In this document: one piece after another, positions 39,287 through 60,906 of the stretch | Numbering within the stretch: position 1 is the stretch's first letter | Layout of the letters: each line of letters opens with the position of its first letter | Origin: Zetaproteobacteria bacterium CG_4_9_14_3_um_filter_49_83 | GTDB lineage: Bacteria; Pseudomonadota; Zetaproteobacteria; Mariprofundales; Mariprofundaceae | Direction: 5' to 3' | Length of the DNA stretch: 61,295 bases | Assembly: GCA_002791545.1 (NCBI GenBank) | Contig: PFXG01000018.1 | Span: 1 to 61,295, forward strand | Notes under the pieces: generated by a model | Told to the model about the DNA's origin: nothing | What the model saw: only the letters and a program-made list of their open reading frames with translations | The model's database searches: none | Position numbers and translations under genes: made by a program

Positions 39287-39784
39287 TTGCCTCTGGAATG
39301 GCTGCTTTTAACCTCCTTGCCTGTTTCAACATTCAGTCAGGCAAAAGTTATTGCTCAATGGTATGGTATTCGCTGGTGTATTGAGGTTTACTTTCATGTG
39401 CTGAAAAGCGGCTGCCAAATTAGTGAGCTTCAGCTTGAGACAATAGAGAGGCAGCTTGCCTGTTTGGCGCTGTATATGATCATTGCGTGGCGCATTATGT
39501 TTATCACGATGCTTGCCCGAACATGTTCGAGTGTTGATTGTGAAGTGATTTTTGATCGCATGGAGTGGCAGGCCGCTTATATTGTGTACCACCATGAATC
39601 TCCGCCAGCCACTCCTATATCTTTGGGTGAAATGGTGACTCTGGTAGCTTGCCTTGGCGGTTACCTCAATCGGAAAAATGATGCTCCTCCAGGCCCAAAG
39701 ACCATTTGGAGAGGATTACAGCGAATCCGAGATTATGCAGTGGCATTGGATGCTAACAAACATCTGGGGGAACGATGTGTATAA
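39287..39784 (+). mobile_element. IS4-family (Tn5-like) transposase fragment
   Basis: The C-terminal part of an IS4/Tn5-type transposase. The YREK signature is complete, Y-x2-R-x3-E-x6-K in YGIRWCIEVYFHVLKSGC (about residues 27-44), so the catalytic Glu is present. GGYLNRK and KTIWRGLQRIRDY near the end are typical. A stop codon lies directly upstream (39284) and the DDE Asp residues of the N-terminal half are absent. The element is a truncated relic and I could not find its terminal repeats. Confidence 0.75.
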
Positions 39785-40325: not shown

Positions 40326-41465
40326 ATGATTAATGAAGTATATATTGATAATTTTAAGTCGTTGGTTGGCTTCAGGATGAAGTTTGCCAAGTTTAATTGT
40401 CTTATCGGGCTTAATGGTGCAGGTAAATCTACTGTTCTTCAGGCGCTCGATTTTTTGGCGCAGTTGATGCAGGGCGATATCAATGGCTGGCTGGAGGAGA
40501 GGTACTGGGATAAGAGCGAATTAAACAGCAAACTGAGTAAAAAACAGAATATCAGTTTTGAGGTAACCAGTAGCCAAAAAGCGGCGGGTGAATTGAAGTG
40601 GTTCGGTGAGTTTAACCGTCAGAAGCTTTATTGTTCATCTGAAACGATCACGTTGAACGGCAAAACATTACTGAAAGTTGCCGATGGACGTTTTGCAATC
40701 AATGGTGATATCAGTCAGCCCATCATATTTTCATACCAGGGTTCTATTTTGTCCGTCTTAAAAGAGAAAGAGCTTTCAGACGGGTTGCTCGCACTCAAGA
40801 CGGAACTTTCATCAATGAAATCGATGGATTTGCTCTCGCCTCACCTGCTGCGTCAAAAGGCGCGGGAAAGCGGCATGGATGTCGGTCTTGGCGGTGAAAA
40901 GCTATCGGCTTTTCTGCATGAGCTTTCCAGTGAAAAGCGTGTGATGTTGGAACAATCCCTGAAAAGCTATTACCCAAGCTTCAGCACATATCAGACAAGC
41001 GCGATGAAATCGGGCTGGAAGAAACTATCAGTTCATGAAATGTTTGACGGTCAGCCTGTAGAGACAGAGGCAAGGCACATGAATGATGGCATGTTGCGTA
41101 TCATGGCCATTGTGGCGCAAACATTGGCCGAACACTCATTCCTGCTCTTTGATGAGATTGAAGATGGAATCAATCCAGAGTTGATTGAACAGTTGGTAGA
41201 TCAACTGGTCGATGCACCGCAGCAAATGTTGGTGACAACCCACAGTCCGATGATTTTGAACTATCTGGAAGATGAAGTCGCCATTGCTGGGGTGCAGCTA
41301 ATCTATAAAAATAAACAGGGGCTTACTCGGGCCAAAGCGTTTTTTAAAATTCCATCCATGGCTGAAAAACTCCGGCTGATGGGGCCGGGTGAGGTGTTTG
41401 TTGATACAGAACTGAAGACGCTTGTTAATGAACTGATTGAGAACCCTGAGGGGTCAGCGTCTTGA
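40326..41465 (+). CDS. AAA-family ATPase (OLD/RecF-like), defence-associated
   Basis: A 379-residue ABC-type ATPase of the AAA_15/AAA_21 group. It starts with VYIDNFKSLVGF and a Walker A LIGLNGAGKSTVLQAL (about 27-42). The ABC-like signature region is METEARHMNDGMLRIMAI-like (RHMNDGMLRIMAI). Walker B is SFLLFDEIEDGINPELIEQL (about 273-292), and the switch His is in QQMLVTTHSPMIL. Single-gene OLD nucleases fuse such an ATPase to a Toprim domain; here the next gene overlaps by 4 bp and looks like that Toprim partner. I infer an anti-phage or nucleic-acid-damage effector pair. Confidence 0.78.
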   Translation: MINEVYIDNFKSLVGFRMKFAKFNCLIGLNGAGKSTVLQALDFLAQLMQGDINGWLEERYWDKSELNSKLSKKQNISFEVTSSQKAAGELKWFGEFNRQKLYCSSETITLNGKTLLKVADGRFAINGDISQPIIFSYQGSILSVLKEKELSDGLLALKTELSSMKSMDLLSPHLLRQKARESGMDVGLGGEKLSAFLHELSSEKRVMLEQSLKSYYPSFSTYQTSAMKSGWKKLSVHEMFDGQPVETEARHMNDGMLRIMAIVAQTLAEHSFLLFDEIEDGINPELIEQLVDQLVDAPQQMLVTTHSPMILNYLEDEVAIAGVQLIYKNKQGLTRAKAFFKIPSMAEKLRLMGPGEVFVDTELKTLVNELIENPEGSAS

Positions 41466-42181
41466 TCTTGCTACTCAGTGGTGAAGGTCCATCAGATATT
41501 GGTACCTGTGATAACATGACAGGTTTTTGTGATTGCTCATCTTTTGTGCCCGGGCCGATGGCAGTTTTTGTCGACCAGTTGGTTGAGATTGTTCTTGGTT
41601 ACTCATGTCTAGGAATTGGTTGTCTACGGTTTGTCAGTGAACATCAGCTGAAAGAAATTGGCAGCGGTTTGAAGCAAAAACGTCGTCTTACGTTACCCGG
41701 TAAAAAGAAGCAACGGGAAACAGGTTATTTTGAGAAAAATGCACGGGCGCTGGCGGTCACAGCCAAACAGCTGATGGTTGAATTGAATGATGAAGTGGTC
41801 GCGGTTCTTTTTCGTGATGTAGATGGTACCAGATCGACGAAGCGTGGGCTTTACGAAGCTAAGCGAGATTCGATGATGCGGGGCTTTGAAATGGAAGAAT
41901 ATGCCAAAGGTATTCCCATGATGCCAAATCCACAGTCCGAGGCGTGGTTATTGTGCGCTGTGCAAGAGAGTCCATACGATAACTGCGATAAGCTTGAAAA
42001 TATGTCGGGCAATGACAATAGCCCCAATGATTTGAAGACGCAGCTGGAAAAGACGATCGGTGAACATGTAGGCGCTCAAGAACTGGCTGAAATGGCTTTG
42101 GATGGAAGAATTGATGTACATCGGATTGATATGCCAAGCATGAATTGGTTTAAAAAACGGTTGAGTGAGGCTCTCTCATGA
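41462..42181 (+). CDS. Toprim-like (DUF4276-type) putative nuclease
   Basis: A 239-residue protein overlapping the AAA ATPase gene by 4 bp. It begins LLLSGEGPSDIG, matching the N-terminal Glu motif of Toprim-like folds. The acidic pair is in VAVLFRDVDGTRST (DxD, about 115-128), and PMMPNPQSEAWLLCAV (about 154-169) is the late conserved element of DUF4276 proteins. This suggests a metal-dependent nuclease acting with the ATPase, like a split OLD system. Family-level assignment is by motif pattern only. Also comparable to PARIS-like AAA/Toprim pairs, though I cannot confirm membership. Confidence 0.6.
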   Translation: MILLLSGEGPSDIGTCDNMTGFCDCSSFVPGPMAVFVDQLVEIVLGYSCLGIGCLRFVSEHQLKEIGSGLKQKRRLTLPGKKKQRETGYFEKNARALAVTAKQLMVELNDEVVAVLFRDVDGTRSTKRGLYEAKRDSMMRGFEMEEYAKGIPMMPNPQSEAWLLCAVQESPYDNCDKLENMSGNDNSPNDLKTQLEKTIGEHVGAQELAEMALDGRIDVHRIDMPSMNWFKKRLSEALS

Positions 42182-42232
42182 ACCGCATCTCTCAGTTACG
42201 AAATAATTTTAATGTATGGAATGTAGCCTGAT

Positions 42233-43585
42233 ATGAGCGAATCGCAGCATGTGGAGTGGAAAGAGTCGTGGCGGGATGAATACCTGAAATGGGTCTGCGG
42301 CTTTGCCAATGCTGATGGTGGCGTGTTGATTGTCGGGCGTAATGATGAAGGCGAAGCGGTGGGTATTGCTGATGCGCGCCAGCTTTTGGAAACGCTTCCC
42401 AACAAAGTGCGCGATTTGCTGGGCATCATTGTGGATGTGAATTTAGTCGAAGAAGCTGGTAAGCAGATGCTTGAGATTGTGGTGGAGCCTTACCCTTATC
42501 CCATCAGTTACAAAGGCCAATACCATTACCGCACGGGTAGCACCAAGCAGGAGCTCAAAGGCGCTGCGCTGGATCAGTTTTTGCTCAAGAAGCAGGGCAA
42601 GCGCTGGGATGGTGTGCCTGTTCCCCATGTGACCGCCGATGATTTGAACGCCAAGACATTCGATGATTTCAAAGCCCAAGCGATGAAGAGCAAGCGGGTG
42701 GATGAAGAGGTGCTGGGTGAGAGCAATGCCCACTTGCTTGAAAGATTGCACCTTAATGATGGCGCGTATTTGAAACGCGCAGCTGTTTTGTTGTTTCATC
42801 CTGACCCTGAGCGCTTTGTGACCGGGGCTTATGTGAAGATTGGTTACTTTGCATCGGATGATGATTTGCGCTATCAGGATGAGGTGCATGGTAATCTCTT
42901 TGAACAGGTGAAAGGTTGTTTGGATCTGTTGCGCACCAAATATATGAAGGCTGAAATTCGCTATGAAGGCGCGCAGCGGATTGAGGAGTTTTCTTACCCT
43001 GATGCAGCTCTGCGTGAAGCCTTGCTCAATGCCATTGCGCACAAGGATTACAGCGGCGGCACACCCATTCAAATCAGTGTGTACGACAATAAAATGATGT
43101 TTTGGAATGAAGGGAAATTGCCTGAGCATTGGACGATAGCGCAACTGAGCGAGAAACATCCCTCCAAACCGCACAATCCCGATATTGCCAATGCCTTCTT
43201 TCGCGCTGGGCTCATTGAATCGTGGGGTAGAGGCACACTGAAAATTCTTAAGGCGTGTGCTGATGCTGGGTTGCCTGTGCCGACCTATAAGTATGACCTT
43301 TCTGGTTTTATCTTGGAAATGCCGGGGAAAACGCGGGTGGAAACGCCGGGGAAAACAGCCCAAGAAAAGTTGGGTGAAAAGTTGGGTGAAAAGTTGGGTG
43401 AAAACAGGCAGGCGATTGTGAGTGCCATGGACAGTGAACCCACCATTACCATAACTGAATTGGCTAACAAGCTGGGGCTGAGCACGACGGCTATTGAGAA
43501 TAATGTTAAATGGCTTAGAGAAAAGGGTTATATACAGCGGGTTGGCCCTGCAAAAGGCGGCTACTGGAAGGTGTTGGGGGAATAG
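42233..43585 (+). CDS. AlbA_2-domain ATP-binding/HTH protein, RM-associated
   Basis: A 450-residue protein with an N-terminal AlbA_2 (divergent AAA_4) domain: HVEWKESWRDEYLKWVCGFANADGGVLIVG. A GHKL-like region follows (YPDAALREALLNAIAHKDYS, FWNEGKLPEHW, AFFRAGLIESWGRGTLKI), then a C-terminal winged helix (ITITELANKLGLSTTAIENNVKWL). Such genes are frequently found between hsdS and hsdR in type I restriction loci. The linker contains three exact 12-bp units at 43364-43399 that encode the repeated GEKL stretch. It directly precedes hsdR (3 bp), so it is part of that operon. Confidence 0.8.
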   Translation: MSESQHVEWKESWRDEYLKWVCGFANADGGVLIVGRNDEGEAVGIADARQLLETLPNKVRDLLGIIVDVNLVEEAGKQMLEIVVEPYPYPISYKGQYHYRTGSTKQELKGAALDQFLLKKQGKRWDGVPVPHVTADDLNAKTFDDFKAQAMKSKRVDEEVLGESNAHLLERLHLNDGAYLKRAAVLLFHPDPERFVTGAYVKIGYFASDDDLRYQDEVHGNLFEQVKGCLDLLRTKYMKAEIRYEGAQRIEEFSYPDAALREALLNAIAHKDYSGGTPIQISVYDNKMMFWNEGKLPEHWTIAQLSEKHPSKPHNPDIANAFFRAGLIESWGRGTLKILKACADAGLPVPTYKYDLSGFILEMPGKTRVETPGKTAQEKLGEKLGEKLGENRQAIVSAMDSEPTITITELANKLGLSTTAIENNVKWLREKGYIQRVGPAKGGYWKVLGE

Positions 43586-43587
43586 GA

Positions 43588-46218
43588 ATGAGCGATATAG
43601 GTCAACGCGAACGCGCCACCCAGAACCGGGTGGTGCAACTATTCAGGGATAAACTGGATTATGAGTATTACGGTGATTGGCAAGATCGCGCTGATAACGC
43701 CAATATCGAAGAAGCCTATCTTTTAGAATGGTTGGGCAAGCAGGGCGTGGATGCTTCAACGGCAACCCTTGCCATTCGTGATTTCAAACGCGCTGCCAAT
43801 ATGGGTGATGGCAAGCATCTCTTTGATGCCAACAAGGCTATTTACAGCCTGCTCAGATATGGGGTGAAAGTGCGCCAAGGGCAGGGCGAAAACACCAGGA
43901 CGGTCTGGTTGATTGATTGGAATAAGCCACTTAATAATGACTTTGCCATTGCCGAAGAGGTCTCTGTAAAAGGGCAAAACACCAAACGCCCGGATATTGT
44001 GTTGTATGTAAATGGTATTGCGTTGGGGGTGCTTGAACTCAAACGCTCATCGGTATCGGTGACAGAAGGTATTCGCCAGAATCTGGATAATCAGAAAAAG
44101 ACGTTTATTCGTGATTTCTTTACCACCATGCAGTTGGTGATGGCGGGTAATGATTCGGAAGGCTTGCGCTACGGCGCCATTGAAACCCCTGAAAAGCACT
44201 ATTACAGCTGGAAAGAAGAAAATCCTGATTACAATCCTGAAGTGGATGAGCCGGGTAAAAAGCATTTGTCGGTACATGATGCGGGTGACGGCATTGGCCA
44301 GCTTGATTTTGATATCCTTAATTTCTGCAACAAAGAACGCTTCCTGGAAATGATTCACCATTTTATCCTTTTTGATGCGGGGGTGAAAAAGAGCTGCCGT
44401 CAGAATCAGTATTTTGGGGTGAAGGCGGCGCAAAAACGTTTGTTGGCTAACGAAGGTGGCATTATTTGGCATACTCAGGGCTCTGGCAAAAGCCTGACCA
44501 TGGTATGGCTGGCCAAGTGGCTTCGTGAGCATGTAGCCAATGCACGGGTATTGGTGATTACCGACCGAACGGAACTGGACGAGCAAATCGAAGGTGTGTT
44601 TGCTGGTGTAGATGAACATATTTACCGTTCCAAAAGTGGCGCAGACCTGATTGCCAGCCTGAATGAACCCGAGCCATGGTTGCTCTGCTCACTGGTGCAC
44701 AAGTTCGGCAGGCAGGGCGGCAATGATCAAGAACAGGATGATGAACAGGCGACAGACGATTATCTGCAAGCCCTGAAAAGCAGTCTGGGCAAAGATTTTA
44801 GTGCCAAGGGTAAGGTGTTTGTGTTTGTGGATGAGTGTCACCGCACCCAGTCGGGTAAATTGCACGATGCGATGGAGGCGATTTTACCCGAAGCCATTTT
44901 TGTCGGTTTTACAGGCACACCGCTGCTGAAAAAAGATAAGCAAAAGAGTATTGAGGTGTTTGGCTCGTTTATTCATACCTACAAATTTGATGAAGCCGTT
45001 GCTGATAAAGTGGTGCTCGATCTGCAATATGAAGCGCGCGACATTGATCAATATATTCGTGCTCCAGACAAAATTGATGAGTGGTTTGAAATCAATACCC
45101 AGGGTCTCACCGATATGGCCAAGGTGCAGCTCAAACAGCGCTGGGGAACCATGCAGAAAGTGCTATCCAGCCAGGATCGCCTTGAAATGATTGTGAACGA
45201 TATCTGGAAGGATATGAAAATCAGGCCACGTCTGGCGGATGGGCGCGGTAATGCCATGCTGGTTTGCGCGAGCATTTACCAGGCATGTAAGGTGTATGAG
45301 CTGTTTAGTCGCACCGATTTAAAGGGAAAGTGCGCCATTGTCACCAGCTACCTGCCATCATCTGCGGATATCAAAGGTGAAGAAACGGGTGAGGGTTTAA
45401 CTGAAAAACTGCATCAGTATGAAATTTACCGTGAGATGCTGGCTGACTATTTTGAAGTGAGCAAAGACGAAGCCATCAAAAAGGCTGAAGAGTTTGAAAC
45501 ACGGGTGAAAAAGCAGTTTAAGGAAGAGCCCGGGCAGATGCGTTTGCTGATTGTGGTGGATAAGCTGCTTACTGGCTTTGATGCACCGTCTGCGACCTAT
45601 TTGTATATTGATAAGAAGATGCAGGATCATGGGTTGTTTCAGGCCATTTGCCGGGTGAATCGTCTGGATGGTGAGGATAAAGATTACGGCTACATCATCG
45701 ACTACAAAGATCTGTTTCACAGCCTTGAAACATCCATTGGTGATTACACCAGTGGCGCATTTGATGCTTATGATGCCAAGGATGTGCAGGGCTTATTAAG
45801 CAATCGCTTGGAGACAGCTAAAGAAAAGCTCGAAGAAGCAAGGGAAGCCACCAAGGCATTGTGTGAACCTGTGTTGCAGCCCAAAGCATTGATTGATTAC
45901 ATCCGTTATTTCTGCGGCGATGTGGCCAATAAAGATGCCTTGAAAGCCAATGAGGCCAAGCGGGTATCGCTGTATAAAAACGTTGCGGCACTGGTGCGCA
46001 AGTACGCCAATATTGCCAATGAAATTCAGGCGGCGGGATACAGCGCCAGCGAAGCAAAGGCCATCAAAGCTGAGGTGGAGCACTTCAGTCAGATGCGCCA
46101 GGAAATCAAACTGGCCTCAAAAGACGAAGTGGATATGAAGCAGTATGAGCCGGGCATGCGCCGCCTTCTTGATAGTTTTGTGCGCGCCAATGACAGCGTC
46201 AAAGTCGTGGATTTTTAA
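43588..46218 (+). CDS. hsdR: Type I restriction enzyme R subunit, main part (interrupted by in-frame stop)
   Basis: HsdR cleaves DNA after ATP-driven translocation. This 876-residue part has the nuclease motif RPDIVLYVNGIALGVLELKR (PD-ExK type). The helicase motifs are also present: HTQGSGKSLTMVW (motif I), VFVDECHRTQSGKLH (motif II, DECH), FVGFTGTPLL (III), LIVVDKLLTGFDAP (V) and QAICRVNRL (VI). The frame stops with TAA at 46216-46218, but the same frame continues with typical HsdR C-terminal sequence for another 173 codons. GAA to TAA is one base change and gives DFENLGLIEL when reverted. hsdM and hsdS are absent from this window. Confidence 0.88.
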   Translation: MSDIGQRERATQNRVVQLFRDKLDYEYYGDWQDRADNANIEEAYLLEWLGKQGVDASTATLAIRDFKRAANMGDGKHLFDANKAIYSLLRYGVKVRQGQGENTRTVWLIDWNKPLNNDFAIAEEVSVKGQNTKRPDIVLYVNGIALGVLELKRSSVSVTEGIRQNLDNQKKTFIRDFFTTMQLVMAGNDSEGLRYGAIETPEKHYYSWKEENPDYNPEVDEPGKKHLSVHDAGDGIGQLDFDILNFCNKERFLEMIHHFILFDAGVKKSCRQNQYFGVKAAQKRLLANEGGIIWHTQGSGKSLTMVWLAKWLREHVANARVLVITDRTELDEQIEGVFAGVDEHIYRSKSGADLIASLNEPEPWLLCSLVHKFGRQGGNDQEQDDEQATDDYLQALKSSLGKDFSAKGKVFVFVDECHRTQSGKLHDAMEAILPEAIFVGFTGTPLLKKDKQKSIEVFGSFIHTYKFDEAVADKVVLDLQYEARDIDQYIRAPDKIDEWFEINTQGLTDMAKVQLKQRWGTMQKVLSSQDRLEMIVNDIWKDMKIRPRLADGRGNAMLVCASIYQACKVYELFSRTDLKGKCAIVTSYLPSSADIKGEETGEGLTEKLHQYEIYREMLADYFEVSKDEAIKKAEEFETRVKKQFKEEPGQMRLLIVVDKLLTGFDAPSATYLYIDKKMQDHGLFQAICRVNRLDGEDKDYGYIIDYKDLFHSLETSIGDYTSGAFDAYDAKDVQGLLSNRLETAKEKLEEAREATKALCEPVLQPKALIDYIRYFCGDVANKDALKANEAKRVSLYKNVAALVRKYANIANEIQAAGYSASEAKAIKAEVEHFSQMRQEIKLASKDEVDMKQYEPGMRRLLDSFVRANDSVKVVDF

Positions 46219-55623: not shown

Positions 55624-56019
55624 CTATCCTTCGATAAAGTATTGTTCCTCATCGAGTTTGCGATCAAAAATATGAAACAGTTCGGCCGCATTCATCTGCA
55701 TGCCGGGTTGGTTGCCCGGAAATACCTCGACGCGGATGCCTTCGGCATGCAGCTCTTTAAGATCGTGGTAAACAAAATGCTCCAGCGAAACAGCATCGGT
55801 AGCTTCACCTCGGGCGGCAAAAGGTTCGGCCAGTCCACGGTAAGGCCAGAGTGGCATGACCAGACTGCCGTCCTGTTCACGGCTGACCCAGTCGTCGGCA
55901 TCGCAAAGCCGCCATATCTCTTCGGACTCCATGGTGCGGCTGATGAAATAGTGCAGGCGCTCCGCACTATCCATCGTATCCAGACAGGCCAGTTCACTTG
56001 CCGTTGGTTCGTGTCTCAT
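55624..56019 (-). CDS. DUF2750-family protein, coupled to nifF
   Basis: A DUF2750-type protein. From the ATG at 56019, which forms an ATGA overlap with the nifF stop, it has 131 residues. Family-typical segments are AERLHYFISRTMESEEIWRL, LVMPLWPYRGLAEPFA and DLKELHAEGIRVEVFP. An in-frame start at 56061 inside nifF is rejected. The function of DUF2750 is unknown, but coupling to a NifA-controlled flavodoxin implies it is made under nitrogen-fixing conditions. Confidence 0.75.
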   Translation of the reverse strand: MRHEPTASELACLDTMDSAERLHYFISRTMESEEIWRLCDADDWVSREQDGSLVMPLWPYRGLAEPFAARGEATDAVSLEHFVYHDLKELHAEGIRVEVFPGNQPGMQMNAAELFHIFDRKLDEEQYFIEG

Positions 56020-56558
56020 AGCACGTCGCCAGTCAGTTTCGGCGTGATCTGGCTCAGCCATAGATCGATGCGCGCATCGGTGAGCAGCGACTGATTATGC
56101 TGATCCAGTGCCAGCCCGACGAATTGTCCGTCCAGCACGGCCATCGACTGATCGAACTGATAACCTTCAAGCGGCCACTGACCAACCATGGTAGCACCGC
56201 GTTCGCTGAAAAAACGGTAGAGGTGAATCATCGAGTCGAGAAAGCGATCGCTGTATTTTTCCTGATCACCGAGGCCGTAGAGGGCGATGGTTTTACCGGT
56301 GAAATCGATCACGTCGATATCAGGAAGAAACTCCTCCCAACTGCCGGCTTCAATGTCGGTGGATTTGCCGGGCAACTGATCGATGCCGTAAGTGGGGGTG
56401 CCGAGAATCAGCGCATCATGGTTGAGAAAGGCTTCCACATCGGTGCGGTTAATATTCAGCGGTTTATCGACAATATCGCCCAGCTTCTTTGCTATTTTTT
56501 TGGCAATCAGGCGGGTAGTGCCGGTGTCGGTGCCGAAGTAAATGCCGATCTTTTTCAT
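56016..56558 (-). CDS. nifF: Nif-type flavodoxin
   Basis: A 180-residue long-chain flavodoxin. The FMN phosphate loop is at the start (IGIYFGTDTGTTRLIAKKI), followed by LGTPTYGIDQLPGKS and IALYGLGDQEKYSDRF, both long-chain flavodoxin signatures. It is a likely electron donor to the nitrogenase Fe protein. The symbol nifF is favoured because a sigma-54 promoter (56646-56661) and a NifA site (56767-56782) lie upstream on the same strand. Length and motifs are normal. Confidence 0.88.
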   Translation of the reverse strand: MKKIGIYFGTDTGTTRLIAKKIAKKLGDIVDKPLNINRTDVEAFLNHDALILGTPTYGIDQLPGKSTDIEAGSWEEFLPDIDVIDFTGKTIALYGLGDQEKYSDRFLDSMIHLYRFFSERGATMVGQWPLEGYQFDQSMAVLDGQFVGLALDQHNQSLLTDARIDLWLSQITPKLTGDVL

Positions 56559-56645: not shown

Positions 56646-56661
56646 AGCAATTATTAAACCA
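56646..56661 (-). promoter_or_regulatory. Sigma-54 (-24/-12) promoter of nifF
   Basis: On the minus strand the sequence TGGTTTAATAATTGCT has GG at -24 and GC at -12 with exact spacing. Transcription would begin near 56635, about 75 bases before the nifF start. Confidence 0.7.
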
Positions 56662-56766: not shown

Positions 56767-56782
56767 TGTCGTAAAGCCGACA
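56767..56782. promoter_or_regulatory. NifA upstream activator site for nifF
   Basis: TGT-N10-ACA (TGT at 56767-56769, ACA at 56780-56782) is an exact consensus match, about 140 bp upstream of the expected start. It also lies just beyond the 3' end of the kinase gene on the same strand. Confidence 0.7.
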
Positions 56783-56839: not shown

Positions 56840-59365
56840 TTAGATTCTTCTGTTGCCGGACAGGCTTTTATGAATCATCTGGCTGATTTCGGCTGTGCGG
56901 TAGGGCTTGCTGATAAATTGATAATGATCCAGATCGGTAAGCTCAGCCACCAGTTCATTGGTGCTGTAGCCGGTTTGAAAGATCAAGGGGATTTCCCGGC
57001 GAATCATGCGTATTTGCTGCGCCGCAGCCGGGCCATTGAGTTGCGGCATAACCATATCCAGAAGCACCAGATCAATAGCTTCGGGCTGCTGGCAGAACAA
57101 CTTGACTGCCTCTTCGCCATTGCTGGCTTTGATGATGTTATAGCCGAGGTTTTTCAACTGGGTTGCCGTAACCAGCAGCACTTCGGGTTCATCATCAGCA
57201 ATGAGAATGGTTTCACCATGACCTTTGATAATGAGATGCTCTTCCAGCAGTGGCAGCGTTTTTACTTCAGTCGTCCTCGGGAAGTACAGGTTTACCGTGG
57301 TACCCTGACCTTCAATACTTTCTATGCTGATTCGTCCCTGATGCGCGGCGACCAGCCCCTGAATCACCGGCATACCCAGTCCGGTACCCTTGCCGACCTC
57401 CTTGGTGGTGAAAAAAGGTTCAAAGATTTTGTCCAGCTTATCAGCGGGGATACCGGAGCCATTATCTTTGACGCTAAGGTGCACAAATTGATAGGCCGTC
57501 CAGTGATTATGACGCAGGCGGAAATCTTTATCGGCTTCCCCACAGCTGAGCTCAACGGTGATTTCCGGATGCTCAAGGTGTTCTGAGGCATCGCGGGCAT
57601 TGTTCAGCAGATTGATGAAAATCTGATGCAGTTGCGTGGTGTCGGCCTTGATAAATAAGTCTTCACCGACATTCTGATGACAGTTCAGCTGGAAGCTGGC
57701 CGGTATTGACGATTGTGCAATTTTCAGGCCCTCATTGATCCACGTGGACATATTCACCACCTGAAGTTTCTGGTTGCCATTGTCTTTGCGGGCAAAGGTG
57801 AGTAGTTGTTTGATCATGTCGGCAGCTTTGTAGCAAATATCTTCGGCCGTGCTGAGCATCTGATGGGCCGGATTGTTTTTGTCGATCATATCCAGAGAAA
57901 GGAAAATGTTTCCAGAAATGCCAACCAGCATATTGTTGAATTCATGGGCAATGCCGCTGACTAAAGTGCCGACTGCCTCCATCTTCTGTGCCTGTCTGAG
58001 TTGAACTTCCAGTTCTTTTTTCTCACTGATATCAGAAAATACACCGACATAACTGATCACCTGTTCATCATCGTCAACGATGGCGGTAATGGTCAGTTGC
58101 TGCGTATATTCTTCGCCATTTTTTCGGCGATTGATTACTTCACCTTTCCAGCGACCCTCGCAAACGAGGCTTTGCCACATCTGGCTGTAAAAGGTCATGT
58201 CATGTTTGCCGGAGGATAATATTCTGGATGTCTTTCCAATAACTTCGTTCTCATCAAAGCCGGTGACTTCACTGAAAGCTTTATTGACGCTGAGAATTAC
58301 GCCGGATGGATCGGTGATGGTGACGGCTTCATGTGTTTCAAAAGCGGTAGCCGCCAGACGCATCATGGACTCGGCATGCTTGCGTTTGCTGATGTCGTGA
58401 TAGATCGTGAGAATGCCTTCAACGTTATTCTGTTCATTTAAAATGGGGGCTTTGTTAACTTCAAACCACCATTCTTTGGAAAGAATATTGCGTTTGAGCT
58501 CTTCATATTGCAGGTGTTTGCTTTGCTGATTGATGATGAGAAGCTCTTTATCTTCTTCCGCTTTAGCCTGGGCCGGGCTGAGCTTACCCAGATCGCTGTC
58601 GGTTTGTCCGATAATGGATGCACTGCTTTTAAAGCCAAAATCCTGCAGGAACAGGCGATTGGCACCGACATATTTCTGCTCTTTGTCTTTCCAGGAGATA
58701 CGTGCCGGAATATTTTCCAGTATCGAGGAAAAAAGGTTTTTCTGATGGGCTGCAATTTGTGCTTCAGCTTCCGTTTTGGCTTCATTGAACAGGATAGACT
58801 CACTGGATTTGCCTAATACAAAGGCAGTTCTGATCATCAACAGCACAAAAATCAGGCACAAGATACTTTCGGAAATAGCCATGCTATGCACATGACTGAT
58901 GAAATTGAACTCGACTGGTAACATTGTGAGCAGAATAAAAGTAACAGCGTGTTTGAAATTCGAACTTAAGGTTGCAATAGAACCTGCGCTGATAGCAACC
59001 AGTGCCAGCAGCAGAAAGACCTGATGATCCATAGCCGCGTTCGGAAACAACAGAATTCCGGCACCGCCCCACATCAGAGCTGACGCAATTACCCCGATAT
59101 AAAAACGCTGTTCATAGCTTTTTGCCATATCATAACTGCCATCAAAGTGGCTGTTGAAATGCCATAGCAGTGCGAGACGGGACGCACTGACGCAGGCAAG
59201 GCAGGCCAGCCAGGACCAGGCGTAAAATGCATCGATGACATGCGTCTGGATGCTTGCCAGTAGCAGAGCAAGGCAAAAACCAACAGCGAGATTGCCAGAA
59301 ATATTTGCATATAACTGTCTGGTCTTCTGAATATAAACCTTGCTGTGGAACTTCGCTTCGGGCAT
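56840..59365 (-). CDS. Membrane hybrid histidine kinase with PAS domains and receiver
   Basis: A hybrid sensor kinase of 841 residues from the ATG at 59365 (ribosome site GGAG). Order of domains: about six membrane helices (residues 15-195) and two PAS domains, recognisable by [16 protein letters not shown] and then [20 protein letters not shown]. Next is the HisKA region with [18 protein letters not shown], and the ATPase domain ([33 protein letters not shown]). A C-terminal receiver has ADDEPEVLL and phospho-acceptor Asp in [14 protein letters not shown]. An in-frame start at 59548 is rejected because it would include the NifA site of the divergent gene. Signal and target unknown. Confidence 0.88.
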
Positions 59366-59515
59366 TGCAGTTTTCTCCGGCTTGAGCTTACGTTTTGTGG
59401 TTGCATTAATACTTGAGCAAAAAACGTGCCAGCTATTTTCAGGCTGGATATTTCTGAGGGGCAGAGCGACCTGACTCGTGACTAAATTCAGTGCTCCAAT
59501 AATCAGACAATGGTT

Positions 59516-59531
59516 TGTAAAAAAGCTAACA
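59516..59531. promoter_or_regulatory. NifA upstream activator site for the Nif11-like gene
   Basis: TGT-N10-ACA (59516-59518 and 59529-59531) is an exact consensus match, centred about 85 bp before the expected start. It sits between the divergent kinase and the Nif11-like gene. Confidence 0.7.
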
Positions 59532-59582
59532 ATCGTGATGCACGGCATAGTGGAAGTTAAGTCATTTAAAGGCTTTTCGGCA

Positions 59583-59598
59583 GGGCACGGCTATTGCT
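59583..59598 (+). promoter_or_regulatory. Sigma-54 (-24/-12) promoter of the Nif11-like gene
   Basis: GGGCACGGCTATTGCT fits TGGCACG-N4-TTGCT with one mismatch at the first position and exact spacing. Transcription would begin near 59609. The leader contains the hairpin ATTGTTG-TCGGC-CAACAAT (59613-59631). Confidence 0.78.
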
Positions 59599-59652
59599 AA
59601 GGCAGTACGCCGATTGTTGTCGGCCAACAATTACGAGTAATGGAGTTAAGGA

Positions 59653-59871
59653 ATGTCGATGCAAACGATTAAAGATTTTTCAACTAAAGCCCGTACCGAT
59701 TCAGCGGTGGGAGAGAAGCTCAAAGCGTGCGAGAAGCTAAGGGACCTGATCAAGCTGGCCCGTGAAGAGGGGTTTGATGTGGACGAAGAGTTGTTTTATC
59801 CGCCTAACGACCCGCAATTCAGCGCTGAGCAGCTCTCCGAGAAGCTGGCCAACGCGTTGCTGCGTTGCTGA
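59653..59871 (+). CDS. Nif11-like small protein
   Basis: A 72-residue protein resembling the Nif11 domain. It starts MSMQTIKDFSTKARTDSAVG, typical of Nif11 (a helix followed by a D/E-rich short linker). ACEKLRDLIKLAREEGFDVDEE follows, with the characteristic ALAxxxGF-like element, and a C-terminal helix contains a final Cys (LLRC). Nif11 proteins occur in diazotrophs near nif genes and as leader-like domains elsewhere; their role in nitrogen fixation is unknown. The start is supported by GGAG at 59642 and the gene has its own NifA/sigma-54 promoter. Confidence 0.75.
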   Translation: MSMQTIKDFSTKARTDSAVGEKLKACEKLRDLIKLAREEGFDVDEELFYPPNDPQFSAEQLSEKLANALLRC

Positions 59872-59883
59872 GCAACAACATCA

Positions 59884-59913
59884 CGCTGCGGTTGGGCAAT
59901 TCCGACCGCAGCG
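59884..59913 (+). other. Intercistronic hairpin after the Nif11-like gene
   Basis: CGCTGCGGT (59884-59892) pairs with ACCGCAGCG (59905-59913), a perfect 9-bp stem with a 12-nt loop. There is no T-run after it, so it may protect or partly attenuate the transcript rather than end it. Confidence 0.6.
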
Positions 59914-59965
59914 AGGAGTTATCTTTGCATTATGCGTGTATTGCTATATGCAAAATTTGGTTTGT

Positions 59966-60322
59966 ATGAATATCTCTCCTGAGCAGTGGGTTGCCAGCCA
60001 TGCACTCAGCCCGATTGATATCGATTGTGTTTTCACCGTGATGCTCAAAATTCTCGATGGTAAATGCAAAATGAGCGGGCAGGGCAAGGAGGTCATGGAA
60101 AAGCTCTATGACCTGCTTAAAGGTCAAGCCGGCCATCATCTCGACGCTCAAGTCCATTTGTTGATCGGGCAAGCACGTGCAAGCCAGATAAGTGAAGCAC
60201 TACGCATGCAGATTTATGAATGCCGTCTGCTGGCCGAAACAACGATTTCGCGACCGGTAATGAAAGCATTCAAGGCAAGGCTGCGCGCTGATGGCGTGAT
60301 CGGGTCGGGCGTTGCCATTTAA
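59966..60322 (+). CDS. Unknown helical protein downstream of the Nif11-like gene
   Basis: A 118-residue, mostly helical protein: DIDCVFTVMLKILDGKCKMSG, EVMEKLYDLLKGQAGHHLDAQ, and a conserved-looking middle HLLIGQARASQISEALRM (parts quoted). No membrane segment or catalytic motif. The ATG at 59966 is chosen because upstream in-frame residues overlap the Nif11-like gene and the hairpin. It may be read through from the NifA promoter 370 bp upstream. Family unknown. Confidence 0.55.
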   Translation: MNISPEQWVASHALSPIDIDCVFTVMLKILDGKCKMSGQGKEVMEKLYDLLKGQAGHHLDAQVHLLIGQARASQISEALRMQIYECRLLAETTISRPVMKAFKARLRADGVIGSGVAI

Positions 60323-60498: not shown

Positions 60499-60549
60499 TA
60501 AGGTTTATGTGTTAACAATTCGTCTGATATCAACCAGAGGAGGGTGAAT

Positions 60550-60906
60550 ATGCAAAGTACCAATGTCGCAATTGTAGGATTAGGAAAAATCGGTTCTTTC
60601 TTTCTGCAACAATTAATAAGTCGTTTTAACTTGGGTTTGAACATCATCTGTGCTGTAGAGCCCAATGATACCGAAGGTAAAGAACTGGCACAGAAAAATG
60701 GAATTGCTGTTGTTACTATTGATGATCTGATCAGCTTTGAAGATGACGTGCACATAATTTTTAACCTGACTGGCCTTGATAGTGTTCAGCAGGAAATTCG
60801 GCATAAGCTTGATGCTTCCTGTAATTTCAAGACAGAGCTTCTTTCGGATAATGTGCTAAAGGTGGTCTGGAGCATGTTAACCGACGAACCTATTCCCGAA
60901 CGGTAA
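60550..60906 (+). CDS. Small Rossmann-fold NAD(P)-binding protein
   Basis: A 118-residue protein containing only the nucleotide-binding half of a dehydrogenase. VAIVGLGKIGSFFLQQLI is a GxGxxG dinucleotide loop (about residues 6-23), and VEPNDTEGKELAQKNGI supplies the acidic end of the second strand. It then has DDVHIIFNLTG and ends VVWSMLTDEPIP. Aspartate- or homoserine-dehydrogenase-like N-termini look similar, but the catalytic domain is missing. A redox- or nucleotide-sensing role is possible. ATG 60550 follows AGGAGG; a GTG at 60544 is too close to it. Confidence 0.65.
   Translation: MQSTNVAIVGLGKIGSFFLQQLISRFNLGLNIICAVEPNDTEGKELAQKNGIAVVTIDDLISFEDDVHIIFNLTGLDSVQQEIRHKLDASCNFKTELLSDNVLKVVWSMLTDEPIPER

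Follow-up and report, generated by a model that had tools for sequence, protein, structure and literature searches.

The presence of a small Nif11-domain gene in a nif island raises the question of how this gene is controlled, and whether its product is an accessory protein of nitrogen fixation or, as its automatic database name states, a precursor of a RiPP. The window analyzed here is a whole contig of 61,295 bp, belonging to a genome of 2.68 Mb, and its 3′ third is occupied by the nif block. The order of genes in this block is nifE, nifN (nitrogenase component 1-type), nifX, a DUF269 gene, a 2Fe-2S gene, and DUF364, which are followed on the minus strand by a GNAT gene, a DUF2750 gene, a flavodoxin gene (fldA/nifF, 56016–56558) and a hybrid sensor kinase gene, and then on the plus strand by nif11 and the gene named here P118. 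The two open reading frames of 72 and 118 amino acids described in an earlier note on this DNA were confirmed, with nif11 located at 59653–59871 (+) and P118, which encodes an all-helical orphan protein, at 59966–60322 (+), leaving a gap of 94 bp. The start of P118 was chosen by family length, and its ATG at 59966 is not preceded by a clear ribosome-binding site. The genome also encodes a full-length NifA (TIGR01817, 680 bits versus a cut-off of 529). Just 5′ of the nif block there is a mobile/defence block, which consists of a Tn5-family transposase fragment (39287–39784) followed by genes for an AAA ATPase, a Schlafen/AlbA-type protein, and type I restriction HsdR (40326–46218).

Promoter elements upstream of nif11

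The earlier note placed a TGT-N10-ACA motif and a −24/−12 promoter upstream of nif11, and both elements are present. The NifA-type UAS (TGTAAAAAAGCTAACA) was located at 59516–59531 by the motif scan and the joint-motif scan, while the sigma54 −24/−12 element (GGGCACGGCTATTGC) was located at 59583–59597 (+) by the motif scan and the weighted score, with the transcription start of nif11 predicted at about 59609. This arrangement, in which TGT-N10-ACA lies 5′ of a GG-N10-GC −24/−12 element, is that of the NifA/sigma54 regulon. The motif scan also detected a second sigma54 element of perfect consensus (TGGCACGTTTTTTGC) at 59417–59431 (−), which faces the hybrid kinase gene. The UAS lies 51 bp 5′ of the −24 element of nif11 and 84 bp 5′ of that of the kinase, and because the perfect element on the opposite strand faces the kinase, it is probable that one UAS serves both divergent sigma54 promoters. 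Hence, of the dedicated promoter that had been proposed for nif11, the sigma54 element stands, while the UAS is apparently common to the divergent kinase promoter.

The TGT-N10-ACA motif by itself occurred 14 times in the window versus 14.7 times expected, which is no excess over chance, and the sigma54 consensus with two mismatches gave 89 matches versus 87 expected, and is uninformative without the UAS. The sigma54 elements were graded using a weighted 15-mer score with a maximum of 20, and both strands were scanned for joint sites, defined as a sigma54 score of at least 17 of 20 combined with a UAS located 40–135 bp upstream. Only three joint sites were found in 61 kb, all scoring at least 19 (19–20 of 20), and they precede nifE, nif11, and the divergent kinase, the last of which uses the nif11 UAS. 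Shuffled windows contained on average 0.15 joint sites at a score of at least 18. A weaker, fourth candidate pair was located 5′ of nifF, with a UAS at 56767–56782 and a sigma54 element (TGGTTTAATAATTGC) at 56647–56661 (−), which scored 16.9.

NtrC is another protein which activates sigma54 promoters during nitrogen limitation, and the genome contains other sigma54 activators, which could speak for a nif11 promoter driven by NtrC instead of NifA. However, the best NtrC-like match within 59401–59653 has 4 mismatches in 12 positions, while the NifA UAS is perfect and recurs in relatives, which makes NtrC control very unlikely. These data suggest that NifA, and not another activator, regulates nif11 in this genome.

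nif11 promoters and neighborhoods in other genomes

The strongest argument for NifA control of nif11 is the recurrence of the joint sites in other genomes. The combination of UAS and sigma54 element was found 5′ of 13 nif11 genes out of 33, counting that of the window, versus 0.15 expected from shuffles, and at these 13 loci the perfect TGT-N10-ACA motif was located 42–128 bp upstream of the sigma54 element. Such sites were also detected at loci in Amphritea, Billgrantia, Pseudomonas, and Oceanobacter, while a number of the Methylomonas loci are too closely related to count as independent. Further nif11 loci had good sigma54 elements with an imperfect UAS, and no sigma54 sites were found 5′ of nif11 at several Rhodocyclales or operon-embedded loci. 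Thus, the NifA/sigma54-type control that had been read from the single sequence gains strong support from the comparison.

The neighborhoods of nif11 were mostly not conserved; neighboring genes were taken from a simple, noisy ORF caller, and many were identified by inspection only. In Methylomonas, nif11 sits among genes of housekeeping type (lysS- and folP-like by inspection), far from nif, and yet it has NifA and sigma54 sites. The order in Methylobacter and Methylovulum is nifK-nifT-nifY-orf-LRV-orf-nif11, while in Azomonas and Billgrantia nif11 is located between a TOBE molybdenum-binding gene with iscA/nifU and a DUF364 accessory block like that in the window. In Rhodocyclales, the crude ORF caller placed an F12 gene 5′ of nif11.

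The published data on nif11-like genes are in agreement with this type of control. The PST1344 gene of Pseudomonas stutzeri A1501 was induced 7.2-fold under N2 fixation and fell to 0.21 after ammonium shock, with both NifA and RpoN sites listed as "Yes" (PMC2820453), and its level was 11-fold up in an E. coli into which the nif island had been placed (PMC6053447). PST1344 is annotated as Nif11-like (PMC11332353), and the window nif11 is apparently its counterpart, as judged by the published annotation and map position. Both are stand-alone Nif11-like genes located in a nif island, and both have consensus sites for NifA and RpoN; however, the A1501 gene is listed beside modCBA, whereas the window gene precedes P118 and is divergent from the hybrid kinase. 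The nif11 gene of Bradyrhizobium sp. DOA9, which has a sigma54 site (TGGCACGCTCCTTGC) at −76 and was lower in rpoN mutants (PMC13207237), shares with the window gene the Nif11 domain and the sigma54 site, but it is rhizobial, and the comparison is at the level of the Nif11 domain.

The Nif11 protein and the RiPP precursor label

The Pfam profile search confirmed the Nif11 domain proposed in the earlier note: residues 1–46 of the nif11 product matched PF07862 with E = 2.6e-13 and a score of 50.5 bits versus a cut-off of 23.8. A sequence search of the PDB gave one Nif11 entry, 9zn4 (E = 4e-4), and the structure model of the protein was of modest quality (pLDDT 74). The remark in that note that the function of Nif11 in diazotrophs is unsettled agrees with Haft et al. 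(2010), who give no known function for this domain (PMC2887384).

To define the protein subfamily, Nif11 sequences from other genomes were compared. Nif11 was present in 32 of 40 P118-carrying genomes, a set that gives a biased Nif11 sample because it was chosen for P118 carriage, and these proteins were 46%–65% identical to the window protein. All 30 translated Nif11 sequences of this set had 71 or 72 residues. The gene was nearly always single copy, although one genome had two adjacent matches; the most evident duplication was that of Amphritea atlantica (G155:C11:355986-356711), where two nif11 copies are adjacent. The window's own genome has one Nif11 only, and neither Nif11 nor P118 was found in a plasmid collection. 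The alignment of 22 Nif11 sequences (the window included) had no internal gap, with 51%–64% identity to the window protein, and the invariant positions include F9, S10, L23, K28, Y49-P50-P51-N52, Q55-F56, Q60, S62, and A68-L69-L70. The window protein therefore has the length of 71–72 residues together with the Y49PPN52, Q55F56, Q60, S62, and A68LL70 residues that mark the nif-linked subfamily. Conservation is highest in the C-terminal third, as the mean entropy is 0.50 for residues 47–72, which are outside of the Pfam domain, versus 1.16 for residues 1–46.

RiPP precursors carrying Nif11 domains have been described, and the N11P precursors are defined by a GG-type cleavage motif before a variable core (PMC2887384). 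The automatic NCBIfam name TIGR03798 would make the nif11 product such a precursor, with a leader peptide; this model scored above its cut-off for the window protein (40.9 versus 32.3 bits) and matched 22 of 22 family members scanned. However, the match in the window protein spans only positions 1–46 of the 68 in the model, which is the Nif11 domain that it has in common with the N11P/TIGR03798 proteins (cyanobacterial prochlorosins and others). The C-terminal motif of the window protein is YPPNDPQFSAEQLSEKLANALLRC, with no GG site and no core peptide; within the family, GG occurs just once, at the extreme C terminus of one sequence, and no variable core rich in Cys, Ser, or Thr was found. A C terminus more conserved than the domain runs contrary to the pattern of RiPP precursors, in which the core varies. 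The N11P genes come in paralogous families (Haft et al. 2010, PMC2887384), whereas nif11 is nearly single copy per genome, the genomic context is that of nif, and no transporter in the genome exceeds the NHLM/PCAT cut-off (TIGR03796). Hence, we regard a role as RiPP precursor as highly improbable, and since the C-terminal third is conserved and a core peptide is missing, the label appears to be a mis-annotation, which judging from these sequences is systematic for the stand-alone nif Nif11 proteins named by TIGR03798.

Distribution of Nif11 among nitrogen-fixing bacteria

To compare the occurrence of the 72-residue Nif11 with that of nitrogenase, 121 Methylococcales genomes were surveyed, of which 65 were nifD-positive and 56 nifD-negative. 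The protein was present in 41 of the 65 versus none of the 56 (nominal p = 1e-15, without phylogenetic correction), so that within Methylococcales all 41 Nif11-positive genomes carried nifD, while 24 of the 65 nifD-positive genomes were without this protein. Among 150 relatives of the window's genome, one other genome of the same family had any Nif11 domain, and this was located inside a 571-codon open frame. The closest relative with the same nif block (G016, locus L014), a genome of the same family, has no Nif11, which indicates that Nif11 is dispensable for having the nif cluster. At this syntenic locus P118 follows directly after nifF, and both the kinase and nif11 are missing; the two genes are thus additional in the window relative to L014. 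In a broad order which includes Dechloromonas, 3 of 150 genomes had Nif11 and 2 had P118, and each gene occurred without the other.

The divergent hybrid kinase

The divergent hybrid sensor kinase (56840–59365, −) described in the earlier note is real, with domain profiles showing a membrane N terminus, two PAS domains, HisKA, HATPase, and a receiver (REC) domain. Its sigma54 element is located just 5′ of position 59365, so that the ATG there is favored as the start over that of a longer ORF. The kinase is likely co-activated with nif11 through the common UAS, as the positions of the elements suggest, and it is a candidate NifA-induced hybrid kinase, although it is a local addition which does not accompany nif11 elsewhere. 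The divergent genes with their common UAS and two good sigma54 promoters could be taken to encode a nitrogen/redox signaling pair of Nif11 and the kinase. This seems quite unlikely, because the kinase is missing from the syntenic L014 locus and belongs to a large paralogous family, with paralogs 48%–49% identical in the window's genome itself, because the kinase divergent to nif11 at Zoogloea-type loci was grouped with another sensor kinase (by inspection DctB-like), and because nif11 neighborhoods are otherwise not conserved. The kinase–nif11 pair as a conserved unit was also rejected, since nif11 neighborhoods vary and the kinase is one of many paralogs. Thus, the kinase, being absent from L014 and part of an expanded family, says little about the function of Nif11.

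P118 as a probable member of the nif regulon

The description of P118 as a helical protein agrees with its AlphaFold2 model, in which six helices are predicted (pLDDT 94, pTM 0.87). No Pfam or NCBIfam family, PDB sequence, or PDB fold matched this protein. There were 162 P118 relatives in species-representative genomes, and among the 80 of them that were listed most were from beta- and gammaproteobacteria of diazotroph-rich genera. The invariant residues of the family are D20-C21, D31-G32-K33-C34, M36, R87, A90-E91, M99-K100, and K103 (motif DC...LDGKC.M). A UAS and sigma54 pair was found within 600 bp at 27 of the 80 P118 loci versus 0.3 expected; at L014 the gene is located beside nifF, directly behind its own UAS and sigma54 element (TGTAGTAAAGCGGACA, TGGCATGACGATTGC), without nif11. 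Judging from these alignments and promoters, P118 appears to be a conserved nif-regulon family missed by curated libraries.

The neighbors of P118 orthologs include a 120-residue Nitro_FeMo-Co protein, rhodanese, a GST-like protein, flavodoxin, LRV, or a nitroreductase-like gene (some by inspection). The Nitro_FeMo-Co protein, which is of NifX/NifY type, is encoded directly 5′ of P118 orthologs in Methylomonas, Pseudomonas, and Azomonas (L008, L009, L017, L061, and L066), and at the Methylomonas-type loci the two genes of this pair share a NifA/sigma54 promoter of their own, which lies away from the nif cluster. P118 differs from this neighbor in having no recognizable sequence or fold relative. 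A 568-residue nitroreductase-like protein (SagB/ThcOx-like by inspection) is encoded beside P118 in about 10 of the 80 loci, including L014, L066, L084, L020, L069, and L074. In A1501, PST1323 was considered as the P118 counterpart, by position.

The gap between nif11 and P118 in the window contained no good sigma54 element (best score 15.2), and P118 expression is therefore likely to depend on the nif11 promoter. The two genes would then be co-transcribed, with P118 probably reached by read-through from this promoter.

The relation between Nif11 and P118

The proposal that P118 is a dedicated partner of Nif11 did not hold, as P118, although it co-occurs with Nif11, mostly lies at a different genomic site, and each gene was also found without the other. 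The two could be functionally unrelated, with the promoter common here because nif11 and the kinase landed between nifF and a P118 gene that was already NifA-driven. This is consistent with the own promoter of P118 at L014, and with the finding that the genes are physically unlinked in almost every other genome; when P118 loci were first surveyed, Nif11 was within about 6 kb at L020 and L022 only. Moreover, 8 of 40 P118-positive genomes were without Nif11, and 22 of 41 Nif11-positive Methylococcales were without P118. On the other hand, P118 was nested in Nif11 in Methylococcales, where all 19 P118-positive genomes were Nif11-positive (nominal p = 2e-5 among nifD-positive genomes, without phylogenetic correction), and among the 40 P118-positive genomes, which span several classes, 32 carried Nif11. 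Taken together, we give unrelated functions a little less than an even chance. This alternative concerns the pairing only and is compatible with Nif11 being a NifA-regulated accessory protein. The safest statement is that Nif11 and P118 appear to share a regulon and to be partly co-inherited, while the two proteins might also contact each other.

A proposed role for Nif11

Overall, we consider it likely that nif11 encodes a NifA-regulated accessory protein which is not a RiPP precursor. The sequence basis of this reading is the Nif11 domain, the promoter architecture and its conservation, the co-occurrence with nifD in one order, and the absence of RiPP features. From the earlier interpretation as a whole, the Nif11 domain, the NifA/sigma54-type promoter, and the unsettled function were retained, while the dedicated promoter, the kinase context, the dedicated partner, and the leader hairpin were not. 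In the proposed mechanism, positions 59583–60322 would form a NifA/sigma54-driven nif11-P118 transcription unit, and the nif island that holds it would belong to a Zetaproteobacterium-like diazotroph. Under low fixed nitrogen and low oxygen, NifA would bind the UAS and activate sigma54 polymerase at the nif11 promoter, and from the same UAS it would probably also activate the divergent kinase promoter. The product would be the 72-residue Nif11 that proteobacterial diazotrophs have as a stand-alone protein, acting as an intact small helical accessory protein and not as a peptide precursor, and P118 would be a second accessory factor in the same regulon.

The Nif11 domains of RiPP precursors are recognized by modification enzymes, which makes it plausible that the stand-alone Nif11 is a protein-docking adaptor, and the neighborhoods of nif11 with nifK-nifT-nifY or with the TOBE gene, iscA, and nifU suggest a part in the maturation of nitrogenase or in supplying its Mo/Fe-S cofactors. 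A docking adaptor for these processes would be the likeliest function, to which we assign about one chance in three. It is more doubtful whether proteobacterial Mo-nitrogenase has an overlooked accessory module made up of Nif11 and P118, in which Nif11 would be the docking adaptor and P118, with its two invariant cysteines, would handle cofactor or sulfur, and of which the window would be a rare one-operon case. The Nif11 domain is named after nitrogen fixation, and the attention so far has been on its RiPP relatives, with the "RiPP precursor" database label being misdirecting. The 72-residue subfamily, which was always accompanied by nifD where tested and has NifA-type promoters even away from the nif cluster, is a clean knockout target, and Nif11 and P118 could matter when a complete and efficient set of nif genes is to be moved to another host.

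Hairpins in the proposed nif11-P118 unit

The possible leader stem GCCGAU-UGUU-GUCGGC at 59609–59624 (+), which had been noted as a leader hairpin, was no better than shuffles (z = −0.97), and Rfam gave no match. The second hairpin reported after nif11, a stem–loop with a 12-bp stem and a 6-nt loop at 59884–59913 (+) in the intergenic region, was strong, with a region z of −3.75 and none of 200 shuffles equal to it. It is not followed by a T-run, and hence it may act in processing or in partial termination between two genes that would be co-transcribed. Farther 3′, after P118, a small 118-residue Rossmann-like protein, matching only the GFO_IDH_MocA/CoA-binding N terminus, is encoded at 60544–60906 (+) without a sigma54 element.
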